Positions 6 to 7,990 of a stretch of DNA of 8,023 nt are shown here, piece after piece (position 1 is the stretch's first letter; each line of letters starts with the position of its first letter). The position numbers and the translations under genes are program-made. This DNA is from Collinsella sp. Lineage in GTDB: Bacteria > Actinomycetota > Coriobacteriia > Coriobacteriales > Coriobacteriaceae. The stretch is taken from assembly GCA_022728415.1 (NCBI GenBank), contig JAIJJM010000085.1:1-8023 (forward strand). The letters are read 5' to 3'. The notes beneath the pieces were generated by a model. That model saw only the letters and a program-made list of their open reading frames with translations. It was not told where the DNA came from and searched no databases.

Positions 6-60
6 TCTCAATCTGTAACATCTAGCAGTGAAAACGGGGTCTACGTGTTACAGATCGAGA
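6..60. repeat. 55-bp inverted-repeat element, single pair
   Basis: Left arm TCTCAATCTGTAACA (6-20) and right arm TGTTACAGATCGAGA (46-60) are inverted copies with one difference (A opposite C at arm position 5), separated by exactly 25 bp. The complementarity extends one more base outward (G5 with C61). The geometry and sequence match the six-unit array at 2334-2548, so this is a second locus of the same family. It lies 28 bp beyond the mntH stop codon, so mntH mRNA could carry it as a 3' hairpin. No U-tract follows on the mntH strand, so a terminator role is weak. The pentamer GTTTG lies just left (1-5) and just right (62-66) of it. The window edge prevents seeing whether further units lie upstream. 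Confidence 0.9.
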
Positions 61-88: not shown

Positions 89-1345
89 TTACATCCCGGT
101 CAACAACACGACATCGAGAGTCGTCACGATGATACCGATCCCTACGAGCAGCGCATTGAGTGGGCGCGAGTTGGCGTATTTGCCCATGACGCGGCGTGAG
201 CTGGTGAGCCGTATGAGCACAAAGACCGTAATCGGCAGCTGAAGCGACAGCAGTGCCTGACTCCAGATAAGCCCCTCAAAGGGGTTTGGGACGACAAGGC
301 ACGATGCGACGGCACCGGCGAAGCAGGCCGCCACGCCGATCGAGGAATGTCGGTCGTGGATATCGTATTCCTCGTCGAACATGCCCGCGGTGATGGTGCC
401 CGCCGCCATGCCCGCCGTCACGCTGCTCGATAGTCCCGCGAACAGCAGCGCTACCGCAAAGATGGTCGAGCTTGCCGTGCCCAGAATGGGGGAGAGCGTG
501 GCCGCCGCGACGGCGAGGTCGTCTACGACAATGCCATGCGCAAAGAAGGTCGTCGCGGCCAGGATGACCATGGCCGAGTTGATTGCCCAGCCCACGCCCA
601 TCGAAAAGAGCGTGTCGAAGAGCTCGTAGCGCAAACGTTCTTCGATAACTTGCTCGCCTTGGCCTTCGAAGTGCATGGATTGGATGACCTCGGAGTGCAG
701 GAAGAGGTTGTGGGGCATAACGACCGCGCCCAGGACACTTACGATAATCGCGGCAGAGCCAGTGGGCATACCGGGCGTGATCCAGCTTGCGGCGGCCTGC
801 GGCCAGTCGACCTTGACTAGTGCAAGCTCGGCCAAAAACGAGAGTCCTACCACGCCTACGAAAGCGATGATCCAGCGTTCGGCACGCTTGTAGGAGCTCG
901 TCATGAGCATCGCCATCGACACTGCCGCCACGATGACGCAGCCCGCGCGCACGGGCAGCCCAAAGAGCATTTGAAGGGCAATTGCACCACCCAGGACTTC
1001 GGCCATGGCGGTGGCGATGGTCGCGAGATAGGCACTGGCGAGCACCGCGCGCCCACCGAAGCGGGGGAGGTAGCGTGTCGTGGCCTCGGCAAGACAGGCG
1101 CCCGTGGCGATACCCAGGTGTGCCGCGTTGTGCTGCAGCACAATGAGCATAATCGTGGACAGTGTGACGATCCACAGCAGCGCGTAGCCAAACTGCGAGC
1201 CCGCGGCCATATTGGAAGCCCAGTTGCCCGGGTCGATAAAGCCGACGGTCACGAGCAGCCCGGGACCGATGCGCCGCGCAATGTCTAGGCCTCCGTGACC
1301 ACCGGTGCGTCGGGAGCCAAAGTGTTGTTTGAGGTGGTTGATCAT
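89..1345 (-). CDS. mntH: Nramp-family divalent metal (Mn2+/Fe2+) transporter MntH
   Basis: An integral membrane importer expected to move Mn2+ or Fe2+ into the cytoplasm by proton symport. Numbered from the start chosen here (418 residues), the TM1 signature GFIDPGNW has DPGN at 38-41, and the TM6 signature MPHNLFLHS begins at 210, with A207 and M210 in the metal-binding positions. In Nramp structures the Asp and Asn of DPGN plus the TM6 Ala and Met coordinate the ion. The TM6 Met is typical of transition-metal rather than Mg2+ transporters. Hydrophobic segments run through the whole protein and fit the usual 10-11 helices, and the length is normal. An in-frame ATG five codons upstream (1360) lacks a ribosome site, whereas this ATG has AGGA seven bases before it. 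gpmA lies just upstream on the same strand with no clear promoter between, so cotranscription is likely. No manganese riboswitch is visible in the short leader. Confidence 0.93.
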   Translation of the reverse strand: MINHLKQHFGSRRTGGHGGLDIARRIGPGLLVTVGFIDPGNWASNMAAGSQFGYALLWIVTLSTIMLIVLQHNAAHLGIATGACLAEATTRYLPRFGGRAVLASAYLATIATAMAEVLGGAIALQMLFGLPVRAGCVIVAAVSMAMLMTSSYKRAERWIIAFVGVVGLSFLAELALVKVDWPQAAASWITPGMPTGSAAIIVSVLGAVVMPHNLFLHSEVIQSMHFEGQGEQVIEERLRYELFDTLFSMGVGWAINSAMVILAATTFFAHGIVVDDLAVAAATLSPILGTASSTIFAVALLFAGLSSSVTAGMAAGTITAGMFDEEYDIHDRHSSIGVAACFAGAVASCLVVPNPFEGLIWSQALLSLQLPITVFVLIRLTSSRRVMGKYANSRPLNALLVGIGIIVTTLDVVLLTGM

Positions 1346-1352
1346 GGTCGGT

Positions 1353-1356
1353 TCCT
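1353..1356 (-). promoter_or_regulatory. Shine-Dalgarno site deciding the mntH start
   Basis: On the minus strand AGGA lies seven bases before the ATG at 1345. The ATG at 1360 is preceded by GCTGCCCCT, with no purine-rich site, and the AGGA would lie inside that longer reading frame. The shorter start is therefore preferred, moderately strongly. Confidence 0.6.
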
Positions 1357-1367
1357 GCATAGGGGCA

Positions 1368-2331: not shown

Positions 2332-2550
2332 TGTCTCGATCTGTAACAACTAGGGATGGAAATTGGGCCGAGGTGTTACAGATCGAGACAGGAAGAAATG
2401 GTCCTATGGAAAATCTCGATCTGTAACAGCTGACCGCCAAAACCGGCCCTTCGTGTTACAGATTGAGACATTCGGAACCGTCTCCCAAAAGCATCTCAAT
2501 CTGTAACAGTTAGGCGTCGAAATATGGTCTTCCTGTTACAGATTGAGATG
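2332..2550. repeat. Six-unit alternating inverted-repeat array, 40-bp period
   Basis: Six copies of a 15-bp unit start at 2334, 2374, 2414, 2454, 2494 and 2534. Odd copies read TCTC[GA]ATCTGTAACA and even copies are its reverse complement, TGTTACAGAT[CT]GAGA. Every gap (2349-2373, 2389-2413, 2429-2453, 2469-2493, 2509-2533) is exactly 25 bp and differs in sequence. The first and third pairs extend to perfect 17-bp arms (2332-2348 with 2374-2390, and 2492-2508 with 2534-2550). Only arm position 5 varies among the units. Each arm can pair with the neighbour on either side, giving two alternative hairpin registers. The array begins 15 bp past the sulfotransferase stop, and all of it lies upstream of the gpmA promoter. 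Minus-strand TTTT runs follow the second and third hairpins, so termination or 3'-end protection of the sulfotransferase mRNA is possible. Function is unknown. Confidence 0.95.
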
Positions 2551-4183: not shown

Positions 4184-4271
4184 AATGACCCCTTGGGGAG
4201 GGAGGAAACGGATTACTCAGGGGGTCAGTCAGACTAAGTGATCCGTTTCCCTCCGTCCCTAAGGGATCATT
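4184..4271. repeat. 88-bp palindromic intergenic element (MITE/REP-like)
   Basis: The left arm at 4184-4217 and right arm at 4237-4271 pair over almost their whole length around a 19-nt centre (4218-4236). Inner pairs AAACGGAT..ACT with AGT.ATCCGTTT are complete, with one G-T. Outward come a single-base bulge at 4251, a G-G mismatch (4200/4255), a G-T (4195/4260), a run to 4190/4265, one C-A mismatch (4189/4266) and five more pairs. The arms differ at only about five positions. It sits about 110 bp upstream of the gltB ATG. If gltB were transcribed from the left of it, it would form a very stable leader hairpin. The compact, near-symmetric form suggests a dispersed mobile-type palindrome, and no transposase is present. 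Confidence 0.85.
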
Positions 4272-4381: not shown

Positions 4382-7300
4382 ATGCAGGCAGATTCCGCTC
4401 AGCAGCAGGGCCTTTATCGCCCCGAATTCGACCACGATGCATGTGGCATCGGCGCGCTTGCCGATATCAACGGTGAGCGCCATCACCAGATTCTGGACGA
4501 TGCACTGTCCATTCTGGTCAACTTGGAGCACCGCGGCGGCACGGGACTCGAGAAGAACACCGGCGACGGCGCTGGCATCCTGTTCCAGGTTCCGCATCAC
4601 TTTTTCCGTAAAGAGGCTCAAAAGTGCGGCCAGATTCTGCCGGCAGAGGGCGACTATGGCGTGGCCATGCTGTTCTTCCCGCAGGATGACAAGGGCGTGG
4701 AGGATGCCCGCCGCGTGTTCGAGGAGGGCTGCGCCGAGGCCGGCGTGCCGCTGCTCTTTTGGCGCGAGGTGCCGGTCGACCCGCACGACCTGGGCGAGAC
4801 GGCCCGCGCCTGCATGCCTACTATCCTGCAGGCCTTCCTGGGCCGTCCGGACGACACGCCCGCCGGCGATGCCTTTGAGCGTCGCCTGTACGTGTGCCGC
4901 CGCACCATCGAAAAAAAGGCCGACGCCGAGTTTGCCCTGCGCGACAAGATCTTCTATGTGTGCTCCATGAGCTCGCGCACCATCGTGTACAAGGGCATGC
5001 TGGTCGCCACGCAGATGCGCCGCTTCTTCATCGATCTCAACGACGCCGCTGTCAAGACGGCCGTAGCACTCGTCCACTCGCGGTACTCCACCAACACCAC
5101 GCCCAGCTGGGAGCGCGCGCACCCCAACCGCTTTATCATCCACAACGGCGAGATCAACACCCTCAAGGGCAACGTCAACTGGATCCGCGCCCGCGAACCC
5201 AACCTGTACAGCCCCGTGCTGCAGCACGATCTTGAGCGCGTGATGCCCATCATCAACCGCGAGGGCTCCGACTCCGCGATTCTGGACAATGTGCTTGAGT
5301 TCCTGGTCATGAACGGTCGCCCGCTTACGCGTGCCGCGTCCATGTTGCTGCCCGAGCCGTGGGACCACAACGACAGCTTGAGCGAGGAGCGCCGCGCCTA
5401 CGACGCTTACCAGTCCATGCTCATGGAGCCGTGGGATGGCCCGGCGGCCATCGCCTTTACCGACGGTCGCACGCTGGGCGCCGCCCTCGACCGTAACGGC
5501 CTGCGTCCCGCCCGCTACTATGTGACGCGCGACGGCCGCTTTATGCTGGCAAGCGAGGTGGGCACCATCGAGGTGCGCCCCGAGAACATCCTGACGAGCG
5601 GCTGTCTGGGGCCGGGCCAGATGCTCGAGGTCGACTTTGCCCGCGGGCGCGTCATCTACAACGATGAGCTGCGTGCCCGTTACGCCAAGGAAAAGCCCTA
5701 CCGTGATTGGATTGCCGAGGAGACGCTGACCGTCGACGCGCTCGATAGGCCTGCCGCGGCGACGCCCGCCGAGGACGCCGAGGTGCCCGCCGCCGTGCGC
5801 ATGGCTAAGCTCGGGTATCACTGGGATGATGTTGACGAGGTCGTGCGTCCCATGGCCCAGCAGGGCAAGGCGCCGCTCGCCTCGATGGGCATTGATGCGC
5901 CGCTGGCCTGCCTGTCCAAGAAGACGCGCTCCTTCTACGACTATTTCTATCAGCTGTTCGCTCAGGTCACGAACCCGCCCATCGACGCCCTTCGCGAGCA
6001 TATGGTCACCTCGACCACGCTCTACCTGGGCAACCACGGCAACCTGCTCGAGGACTCACGCACGGCCTGCCAGCTGGTTCGCTTGGAGCGCCCGTTGCTC
6101 AACGAGGAGGAGTTCGAGCGTATCTGCGCCATCGACCGCGTGGGCTTTAAGACCCGTCGTTTCCGTGCTGTGTACCGCCGCGATGCCGGCGAGGGCGCGC
6201 TGCAGGCTGCGCTCAAGCAGCTTGCAGAGGACGTTGAGACTGCGGTCCGCGACGGCGTGAACATCGTGGTGTTGAGCGATCGTGCCGCTGCGGGCGAGGT
6301 GCCCGTGCCGTCGCTGCTCGCCGTGGGCTGCGTGCACAACCACCTGATCCGCGCCGGCGTGCGCACCTTTGCCGACATCGTGGTGGAGTGCGGCGACGCC
6401 GTGTCCCCGCACGACTTTGCGGCACTGGTGGGCTACTCCGCGAGCGGCATCTATCCGTACAACGCACATGCGTGCATCCGCGATCTGGCGGCACGCGGCG
6501 ACCTGGACGTGACGGCCGAGCAGGGCATCGCCAACTACAACAAGGCTGCGACCGCCGGCATCGTCTCCATCATGTCCAAGATGGGCATCTCCACGGTGCA
6601 GAGCTACCATTCGGCGCAGATCTTCGAGGCCGTGGGCTTTACGCCGGAGTTCGTCAACGCGTACTTCGCCGGCACGGTGAGCCGTGTGGGCGGTATGGGT
6701 GTCGAGGACGTCGAGCGCGAGCAAAACGAGCGCTACGACGCCGCGCTCGCTATCCTTAAGAGCCCGGCTCCCGATCAGCTGCCCACGCTGGGTTTGACCA
6801 AGTGGCGTCCGCTCGGCGGCGAGGATCACCTCATCGATCCGCAGACTGTCTACTTGCTGCAGACCGCCTGCCGTGAGGACAGCTATGACACCTTTAAGGA
6901 GTACAGCGCCCGCCTGCACCGCACCGGCCGTGCCGTGCGCCTGCGCGACTTGCTGGACTTTGATGCCAGCGGCCGCACTCCGGTGGCACTCGACGAGGTC
7001 GAGCCCGCGCTCAACATCGTCCGCCGCTTTAACACCGGTGCCATGTCGTATGGCTCTATTAGCAAAGAGGCGCACGAGTGCATGGCCATCGCCATGAATC
7101 GCCTGCACGGCCGTTCCAATTCCGGCGAGGGCGGCGAGGATCCGCGTCGCGAGACCCCGCTGGCTAACGGTGACTCCAAGAACTCCGCCATCAAGCAGGT
7201 GGCAAGCGCGCGCTTTGGCGTGACGAGCCGCTACCTGTGCAGTGCCTTCGAGATTCAGATCAAGATGGCCCAGGGCGCCAAGCCCGGCGAGGGTGGCCAC

Positions 7301-7990
7301 CTGCCCGGCAAGAAGGTCTACCCCTGGATCGCCGAGGTCCGTCAGTCCACGCCCGGCATCGGCCTGATCTCGCCTCCGCCGCACCACGACATTTACTCTA
7401 TCGAGGACCTGGCAGAGCTGATCTTTGACCTTAAGAACGCCAACCCCGGCGCGCGCGTGTCGGTCAAGCTGGTCAGCGAGGCCGGCGTCGGCACCATCGC
7501 CACCGGTGTGGCCAAGGGCGCTGCCGACAAGATCTTGATCAGCGGCCACAACGGCGGCTCGGGTGCCGCGGCGCGCGACTCTATCTGGCATGCGGGTCTG
7601 CCGCTGGAGCTTGGCCTTGCCGAGGCTCAGCAGACGCTGCTGCAAAACGGCCTGCGCTCACGCGTGGTGCTCGAGGCCGACGGCAAGCTCATGGACGGCA
7701 CCGATGTTGCCGTCGCCTGCCTGTTGGGCGCCGAGGAGTTTGGTTTTGCGACCATGCCGCTCATCTCCATGGGCTGCCTCATGCAACGCGACTGCCAGCA
7801 GGACACCTGCCCGGCCGGTATCGCTACGCAAAACTGCCGCCTGCGTCGCGGCTTCCGCGGCAAGCCCGCCCCGGCGGAGCCCGCCAGCTTTGAGGACCGG
7901 CTCAAGCAGTTCATGGCCGCCTCGGACAGCAAGCTGTCCGAGCTGCGCCAGTCGGAGCGCCGCAGCTCCCGCCGCGGCGGCCGCAAGTAA
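4382..7990 (+). CDS. gltB: Glutamate synthase large subunit lacking the GXGXG domain
   Basis: Forms glutamate from 2-oxoglutarate and glutamine-derived ammonia. GGAGG (4371-4375) lies six bases before the ATG. The class II glutaminase domain runs from the nucleophile Cys21 (FDHDACGIG, so a 20-residue propeptide would be cleaved) to about 440, with HNGEINTLKGN from 254 and DRNGLRPARY from 370. The central domain covers about 475-790. The FMN synthase domain follows, with NTGAMSYGSISKEAHE from 884, GEGGHLPGKK near 970, SPPPHHDIYS near 1000, and Cys1132, Cys1138 and Cys1143 (C-x5-C-x4-C-PAGIATQ) for the [3Fe-4S] cluster. After RGFRGKP (to about 1162) only a 40-residue tail remains, ending in a basic RRSSRRGGRK. 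Typical GltB proteins continue for about 300 more residues with the GXGXG beta-helix, so 1202 residues is short of about 1500. No frameshift is evident. No gltD is in view, so the electron donor (NADPH via GltD, or ferredoxin) is unknown. Confidence 0.94.
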   Translation: MQADSAQQQGLYRPEFDHDACGIGALADINGERHHQILDDALSILVNLEHRGGTGLEKNTGDGAGILFQVPHHFFRKEAQKCGQILPAEGDYGVAMLFFPQDDKGVEDARRVFEEGCAEAGVPLLFWREVPVDPHDLGETARACMPTILQAFLGRPDDTPAGDAFERRLYVCRRTIEKKADAEFALRDKIFYVCSMSSRTIVYKGMLVATQMRRFFIDLNDAAVKTAVALVHSRYSTNTTPSWERAHPNRFIIHNGEINTLKGNVNWIRAREPNLYSPVLQHDLERVMPIINREGSDSAILDNVLEFLVMNGRPLTRAASMLLPEPWDHNDSLSEERRAYDAYQSMLMEPWDGPAAIAFTDGRTLGAALDRNGLRPARYYVTRDGRFMLASEVGTIEVRPENILTSGCLGPGQMLEVDFARGRVIYNDELRARYAKEKPYRDWIAEETLTVDALDRPAAATPAEDAEVPAAVRMAKLGYHWDDVDEVVRPMAQQGKAPLASMGIDAPLACLSKKTRSFYDYFYQLFAQVTNPPIDALREHMVTSTTLYLGNHGNLLEDSRTACQLVRLERPLLNEEEFERICAIDRVGFKTRRFRAVYRRDAGEGALQAALKQLAEDVETAVRDGVNIVVLSDRAAAGEVPVPSLLAVGCVHNHLIRAGVRTFADIVVECGDAVSPHDFAALVGYSASGIYPYNAHACIRDLAARGDLDVTAEQGIANYNKAATAGIVSIMSKMGISTVQSYHSAQIFEAVGFTPEFVNAYFAGTVSRVGGMGVEDVEREQNERYDAALAILKSPAPDQLPTLGLTKWRPLGGEDHLIDPQTVYLLQTACREDSYDTFKEYSARLHRTGRAVRLRDLLDFDASGRTPVALDEVEPALNIVRRFNTGAMSYGSISKEAHECMAIAMNRLHGRSNSGEGGEDPRRETPLANGDSKNSAIKQVASARFGVTSRYLCSAFEIQIKMAQGAKPGEGGHLPGKKVYPWIAEVRQSTPGIGLISPPPHHDIYSIEDLAELIFDLKNANPGARVSVKLVSEAGVGTIATGVAKGAADKILISGHNGGSGAAARDSIWHAGLPLELGLAEAQQTLLQNGLRSRVVLEADGKLMDGTDVAVACLLGAEEFGFATMPLISMGCLMQRDCQQDTCPAGIATQNCRLRRGFRGKPAPAEPASFEDRLKQFMAASDSKLSELRQSERRSSRRGGRK

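Follow-up and report, generated by a model that had tools for sequence, protein, structure and literature searches.

A clade-restricted family of alternating 15-bp repeat arrays in Collinsella: candidate sites for a DNA-bending protein

The array in the window and its surroundings

The window, by which we mean the whole 8,023-nt stretch of DNA analysed here, carries a gene for an Nramp-family metal transporter (PF01566; called mntH; 89..1360, minus strand), a histidine-phosphatase superfamily gene that we take to be gpmA-like (PF00300; 1421..2194, minus strand), an arylsulfotransferase-like gene (PF05935; 2566..4083, minus strand) and a 1202-aa frame for the large subunit of glutamate synthase (PF00310, PF04898 and PF01645; 4382..7990, plus strand). 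The last of these ends early in the window when set beside the 1565 aa found in genome G010 (locus L247) and the 4698-bp gltB of NZ_OY725717.1; upstream of it, at 4189-4265, lies a 32-nt inverted repeat that is 75% complementary.

Six zero-mismatch copies of the 15-bp word TCTCRATCTGTAACA occupy 2334-2548 at an exact 40-bp period, with the strand alternating at every step, just as an earlier note on this DNA had described. Calling the plus-strand arms F and the minus-strand arms R, these are F1 (TCTCGATCTGTAACA; 2334..2348), R1 (2374..2388), F2 (2414..2428), R2 (2454..2468), F3 (2494..2508) and R3 (2534..2548), with R3 sitting 17 bp past the stop codon of the arylsulfotransferase-like gene. 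Three ‘inner’ spacers separate F from R, namely S1 (ACTAGGGATGGAAATTGGGCCGAGG, with the TAG and central AAA of the family code set out below; 2349..2373), S2 (2429..2453) and S3 (2509..2533), and two linkers separate R from the following F (L1, 2389..2413; L2, 2469..2493). The same note had described all five as 25 bp long and different in sequence, and so they are, but S1, S2 and S3 do share some sequence: compared on the same strand they match at 10, 13 and 13 of 25 positions, where shuffling gives a mean of 6.2 and a 95th percentile of 10. A further exact pair, absent from that note's list, begins at 6 (plus) and 46 (minus) and forms a second array of the same family, a single F-25-R unit at 6..60, 3′ of the Nramp gene (ortholog group 11). 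At up to three mismatches the window holds eight matches to TCTCRATCTGTAACA, where 0.16 are expected, and none of 200 shuffles reached eight.

Geometry and distribution of the family

Pooled over 120 loci, which hold 794 arms with up to two mismatches, the F-to-R gap in 379 non-overlapping pairs is 25 bp in 374, 26 bp in four and 24 bp in one, and the R-to-F gap (n = 247) is 25 bp in 136, 26 bp in 102, 24 bp in eight and 23 bp in one. No other F/R gap was seen up to 300 bp in these loci, beyond eight F/R overlaps of −7 bp that we take to be artefacts of the TGTWACA dyad within the arm; same-strand neighbours are separated by 17 bp in eight cases, and by 65 and 140 bp in one case each. Because the loci were chosen by an exact pair, single arms are under-sampled among them. 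The nearly complete genome G010 (98.1% read) is free of that selection bias, and here 87 of the 89 arms with up to one mismatch sit inside 18 arrays, with inner gaps of 25 bp in 43 of 44 cases (26 bp in the other) and linkers of 25 bp (18), 26 bp (9) or 24 bp (1; n = 28); the arms outside arrays amount to two exact copies and two with two mismatches.

Of 150 arrays grouped by position, 148 alternate in strand; the two exceptions read FRFF, and since a 17-bp same-strand gap recurs with the −7-bp overlaps, we read them as overlap artefacts. Variable gaps and a non-alternating order were both sought, and what we found were gaps that shift by 1-2 bp only together with this near-constant alternation. 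The direct-repeat arrangement of CRISPR is not seen in the 148. The earlier note took one arm plus one spacer as the building unit, but the unit is the inward-facing F-25-R pair, repeated with an 80/81-bp period, because 165 of 171 distinct arrays (chained by requiring alternation and gaps of 23-27 bp; one to eight pairs per array) begin with F and finish with R, because a fixed length of 25 bp is kept in the inner spacer but the linker can measure 25 or 26 bp, and because a central A-tract is found in the inner spacer only.

The family is restricted to one clade, that of Collinsella aerofaciens. A search of the genome and of related Coriobacteriia, suggested at the outset, covered 395 Coriobacteriales genomes (43 of the genus Collinsella and 352 others) and found an exact F-24..26-R pair in 23, every one of them among the 43: at least ten exact pairs are present in 22 and a single pair in G037, with none in the 352 genomes of other genera and zero throughout the survey for a reversed-pattern control. 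With the gap left free between 10 and 40 bp, exact arm pairs occur in at least 120 stretches of GTDB contigs, and all 120 listed are titled Collinsella. We also built a sequence-only profile from 45 units drawn from 200 arrays (one per array, up to one mismatch per arm, different spacers, window excluded), and it gave 54-126 matches per array genome, both strands counted, across all 22, whereas four other Collinsella genomes (G020, G029, G037 and G038) each had a lone unit or two; this search over the 43 genomes used stricter filters, under which weak matches are lost. There are about twenty arrays in each array-bearing genome.

As to a phage or plasmid origin, no viral contig carries an exact pair and no phage record was found; the 86 viral stretches that match a single arm are taken as chance, since no viral contig has the exact pair. 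NZ_OY725717.1, which is 900 kb long and entered as plasmid 6 of C. aerofaciens, has gltB, smpB and seven matches to the array query, and is probably chromosomal DNA under a plasmid label. A de novo search for inverted repeats at a fixed gap found no such array in 400 kb of G020, with 400 kb of G010, chosen to include arrays, as the positive control.

Arms that vary independently and a coded spacer

Among 764 distinct arms with up to three mismatches, positions 1-3 and 11-14 are 99.2-99.7% invariant and positions 7, 9 and 10 are 97-98% invariant, and the only dyad that the 15-bp arm contains is the 7-bp TGTWACA. One idea, resting mainly on T3 and G5 of the spacer, is that each arm might be a single pseudo-palindromic site with a weak inner half. 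The full palindrome TCTCRATCTGTWACAGATYGAGA was considered as a stand-alone operator and set aside: it has matches in at least 22 of the 43 Collinsella genomes at up to three mismatches, and many of the listed places coincide with known array arms.

A switchable RNA with two hairpin registers had been put forward for the array, and the independent variation of the arms speaks against it. At position 5 the two arms of a pair (n = 402) read GG in 118, AA in 89, AG in 94 and GA in 101 (odds ratio 1.1, p 0.62), and across the linker the same position is anti-correlated (odds ratio 0.35, p 8e-5); at the other arm positions there are 273 one-arm-only changes and 18 joint changes, with 13.1 expected. 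For the 45 profile units, 497 of 500 shuffles had a covariation score at least as high, and all 500 had at least as large a share of paired cells. The spacers, too, avoid pairing: their mirror positions form Watson-Crick matches less often than expected (z −8.6 at 8/18 and −12.3 at 12/14), and inner spacers fold more weakly than column-shuffled ones; a two-orientation mixture of asymmetric spacers would contribute to this signal, which might also arise if long unstable palindromes are avoided. Arms that do not covary and spacers that avoid self-complementarity contradict a hairpin or cruciform function. We find it scarcely credible, then, that the arrays act as RNA hairpins or switches, as transcription terminators or as mRNA-stabilising 3′ structures: a 15-bp stem could form from any adjacent pair, the window array begins 17 bp past a stop codon and pairs changed on both sides slightly exceed shuffles in the 45 units (10 versus 8.4, with 64 of 500 shuffles reaching 10), but the covariation results above run the other way, a terminator scan (which permits loops of 3-8 only) finds no terminator in the window array, and Rfam yields nothing beyond sub-threshold matches of microRNA type.

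The inner spacer follows a code, consisting of TAG, a GC block, a central AAA or TTT, a second GC block and CTA. Over the 327 distinct inner spacers analysed, A/T stands at position 3 in 99%, positions 4-5 are mostly AG and 21-23 mostly CTA, positions 12-14 are A/T in 96-98%, and positions 7-10 and 16-19 are G/C in 73-86%. The central triplet at 12-14 is AAA in 124, TTT in 123, ATT in 25 and AAT in 21, together 293 of the 327, and triplets containing a TpA step number eight in total. Variation between related spacers, measured in the 36 of 141 clusters with at least three members, comes to 0.13 variants per site per cluster at 12-14 and 0.38 at 3-5, rising to 0.51 in the GC blocks and to 0.65 at the ends; because it is least at 12-14, the A-tract is held within related spacers and the GC blocks only loosely. 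Units of one array have different inner spacers, which are no more alike than those of different arrays (p 0.11), and linkers of one array are slightly more alike than between arrays (p 0.045).

The linkers mostly open and close with A/T-rich triplets and, over 438 distinct dyads, A-tract triplets outside the arms peak at 0, 30 and 50 bp from the dyad, with a best period of 10.1 bp and a resultant of 0.58 at 10.0 bp, where 20 shuffles gave a mean of 0.15 and a maximum of 0.19. Phased A-tracts of this kind are typical of DNA bent round protein, as is familiar from nucleosome and A-tract work. In phased A-tract, nucleosome-like and Lrp/HU/gyrase wrapping sequences A/T and G/C alternate at ~10 bp, and the Collinsella arrays resemble them in showing this alternation on both sides of a dyad; they differ in that their code goes together with exact 15-bp sites and recurs every 80/81 bp.

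Genomic placement, competing explanations and a proposed role

All 18 arrays of G010 lie between called genes (one overlaps a called start by 27 bp), seven of them with convergent, seven with co-directional and four with divergent neighbours, the genes being called by a simple hexamer caller that under-calls (1617 genes). Convergent placement is mildly enriched in G010 (7 of 18 arrays, compared with 122 of 641 gaps of at least 150 bp; p 0.04). In the fetched loci, where the 124 arrays with both neighbours were counted and 26 at locus edges left out, one array lies inside a called gene and 47 are convergent, compared with 102 of 551 neighbour pairs overall, a baseline unmatched for gap length.

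Could each array instead be a multi-site operator, through which a transcription factor controls the adjacent genes? The arms do resemble high-information protein sites, two of the four divergent G010 arrays lie 89-185 bp from both called gene starts, and G020 has a lone unit ~100 bp upstream of a TetR-family gene. However, seven of the 18 G010 arrays lie between convergent genes, no shared function of the neighbour genes is evident (one representative per 23 ortholog groups, with unsystematic annotation), the arms outside arrays in G010 are limited to the four mentioned above, and the TetR gene of G020 lacks a close match in G010, all of which makes this explanation unlikely in our judgement. 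In the G020 locus concerned (L278, 17730-18441) the TetR-family gene adjoins an MCRA-family gene, presumably oleate hydratase-like, and neither has a close match in G010; for want of one, the TetR protein is not taken as the binder.

The distribution of G010 arrays relative to the origin is not significantly biased (KS p 0.09, or 0.18 with merged loci). An exclusion from the terminus, in the style of nucleoid occlusion, was suspected from gaps between the G010 arrays and dropped, given this result and an array at 468 kb: the skew maximum, at 660 kb, is 192 kb away from it, and the skew minimum, at 1750 kb (with parB at 1744 kb), is 1.02 Mb away. The chromosome-marking sites of SlmA and Noc are single sites, depleted near the terminus; the arrays resemble them in being dispersed in number over one chromosome, and differ in that one G010 array lies 1.02 Mb from the origin. 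A Noc-like second ParB was also discarded as a candidate, since extra weak ParB_N matches do not track arrays: more than one ParB_N match is present in nine of the 22 array genomes and in six of the 21 others, and a strong ParB in 42 of the 43.

The 200 arrays, some of which are overlapping cuts of one genome, fall into 23 ortholog groups. Arrays are syntenic across species; between orthologous ones the phase is preserved, and what is gained or lost is entire units and blocks of spacer. The window array belongs to group 5, and its mntH/gltB site holds an array in all 22 array genomes (three units in 15, two in four and one in three) and none in G029. The array of G010 sits directly between mntH and gltB, and that of the window is flanked by the gpmA-like and arylsulfotransferase-like genes; at this site the gpmA-like gene is present in eight of the 22 array genomes (seven whole, one partial), and one genome has a 40-residue remnant of the arylsulfotransferase. 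In G008:C34 (45-61 kb) and G009:C1 (1392-1402 kb), neighbouring arrays are separated by about 5 kb.

A second site, beside a gene that we take from our own reading to be thiD, was read in 21 of the 22 array genomes and is occupied in 12 and empty in nine, six of the empty ones having both flanks alignable; the array of G001, one of the 12, lies about 1.3 kb off the usual place, beyond masked letters, and none of the nine array-poor genomes read has an array here. As six array-bearing genomes without the thiD array keep both flanks, a single array is dispensable. When occupied, the site has a terminator-like hairpin on each side of the array and, when empty, a single hairpin, so that in a comparison with MITEs the two alleles differ by the array plus a second hairpin; insertion with duplication and deletion between the hairpins are therefore both possible.

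Occupied and empty alleles of this kind are also what a mobile repeat would leave, and we regard it as possible, though distinctly on the doubtful side, that the arrays are non-autonomous elements akin to REPINs or BIMEs, in which the F-25-R pair is recognised by some transposase or recombinase; the repeat would spread slowly to intergenic sites, recombination between arms would change array size, and selection would be for mobility. Besides the thiD alleles, this would accommodate the lone units (one or two) in four of the 21 genus genomes without arrays, the range of one to three units at the mntH/gltB site over 22 genomes, and the likeness of G010 inner spacers across loci, where 16 pairs reach at least 18/25 identity against 2.5 expected and a maximum of 6 in 50 column shuffles. 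Set against it are the synteny of arrays across species, the different inner spacers carried by the units of one array, and the transposases themselves: G010 has two Y1_Tnp frames, for which the nearest array is 170 and 291 kb away and nothing arm-like (fewer than five mismatches) lies within 2.5 kb, Y1_Tnp is also present in 14 of the 20 Collinsella genomes that lack an exact pair, and over the 43 Collinsella genomes its presence does not track arrays. No RAYT-like gene flanked by arms was found around the two G010 frames or the IS200 tnpA of locus L451, and the earlier suggestion of a RAYT-mobilised, REPIN-like repeat thus gains nothing where flanks were read. The L451 gene, an IS200/IS605 tnpA at 6983-7441, stands in the place of the group-11 array with an arm on one side only, and looks like an insertion into an array.

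Site-specific recombination in the manner of a shufflon, with the arms as crossover sites and the spacers as shuffled cassettes, would explain the cassette-style replacement of spacer blocks between orthologous arrays with phase kept; ordinary slippage and conversion at 15-bp repeats would yield the same pattern, however, and segments of 25-40 bp encode nothing, and we consider it very unlikely.

Among known systems, the arrays are most usefully compared with BIMEs and REPINs. BIMEs, in the excerpted account of PMC2817692, are intergenic, with regularly spaced, alternating repeats, and are described as binding gyrase or IHF. The Collinsella arrays are likewise extragenic and of high copy number, and in their regular alternating spacing and about 100 repeat copies per genome they recall BIME-2 especially (PMC2817692, same excerpt). 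The earlier note had set the array apart from BIME clusters as the more regular; since that excerpt calls BIMEs both alternating and regularly spaced, alternation alone does not separate the two (PMC2817692). The differences lie elsewhere: the Collinsella unit is a 15-bp arm without sign of pairing selection, having only its 7-bp dyad and arms that do not covary where a REP has a maintained stem-loop palindrome; neighbouring units differ in their inner spacer, whose length stays at 25 bp and whose sequence follows a bend-like code; no cognate RAYT between inverted repeats was found in the flanks of the G010 Y1_Tnp frames and the L451 tnpA; and BIMEs are described in enterics, another phylum. 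REPINs, as an excerpt of PMC3116915 presents them, are mostly single, predicted hairpins whose ordered clusters consist of nearly identical copies. Two conserved inverted ends at a set distance and an intergenic position are shared with them (PMC3116915, same excerpt), but in Collinsella clusters are the rule and pairing is not maintained. On the REPIN trait of a doublet that replicates into near-identical copies the signs are mixed: the doublet is the unit and similar spacers recur across loci, yet the units inside an array differ in their spacers. Because neither a maintained palindrome nor, in the flanks read, a repeat-flanked RAYT was found, we class the arrays as a BIME-like array family, not as BIMEs or REPINs. 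A literature search of open-licence papers gave no description of this repeat among the best-ranked matches; bacterial repeat arrays are known, and the strict coded spacing looks new.

With middling confidence, we propose that the arrays are DNA-level arrays of binding sites for a putative, sequence-specific bending or wrapping protein of the C. aerofaciens clade. A phased protein-binding array had been among the initial suggestions and is supported as the best reading, with fixed spacing and alternation holding family-wide; strict spacing, independent arms, a held A-tract and 10-bp phasing make bending or wrapping sites a better fit than RNA or cruciform structures. Each arm would serve as one site, two sites facing each other across a 25-bp spacer that appears coded for bending, with an A-tract at the dyad, flanking GC blocks, TA steps ~10 bp out and further A-tracts ~30 and 50 bp out. 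Putative proteins bound there may bend or wrap each pair, and adjoining pairs might then stack at 80/81 bp, such that 2-16 sites would build one intergenic particle or filament. Its job would most likely be architectural or topological, as a loop anchor, a supercoil sink or an insulator of neighbouring genes, and perhaps comparable to the role thought to be played by gyrase- or IHF-binding BIMEs in enterics. Protein binding, DNA bending or wrapping and the architectural role are what we infer from the sequence pattern; the loosely held GC blocks, the lack of an evident neighbour function, the non-significant origin bias, the merely mild convergent enrichment in G010 and the dispensable thiD array count against them. 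Selection could act for the host (through architecture or topology) or for the repeat (through mobility), and what is conserved in the arms could be of use to a mobility enzyme and not to the host. Going further, we speculate, and rate it as rather improbable, that a dedicated protein evolved in this clade reads the paired 15-bp arms and wraps the coded 25-bp spacers at ~10 bp per turn, with arrays of one to eight pairs marking ~20 intergenic chromosome anchors in a bacterial analogue of a positioned nucleosome array.

To our knowledge, the nucleoid proteins of Collinsella have been little studied. In a genus common in the human gut, the arrays mark about 20 positions on the chromosome, naturally occurring and bound to one clade, that share an exact geometric code; one of these loci also has natural empty alleles. 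If a wrapping or architectural protein reads them, the code makes the geometry of that protein directly testable; if they are mobile, they would represent a REPIN-like family without visible RAYT support.

Other dispersed repeats, in two families, were seen in G020, a genome without arrays, and two words of each family are absent from the 98% of G010 read. One is an inverted pair with the core CGTCATTATCTGGCAGATTTGTCC (L282, L287, L291, L292 and L295), flanked by AGGGGGTT and AACCCCC blocks, in which the distance between the two copies is 158 bp in three cases and 21 bp more, 179 bp, in a fourth. The second is a palindromic family of about 75 bp, comprising GTGCCAAAAGGGACGTACCCTAACGGCAC and its inverse (L281, L282, L290, L292 and L293).
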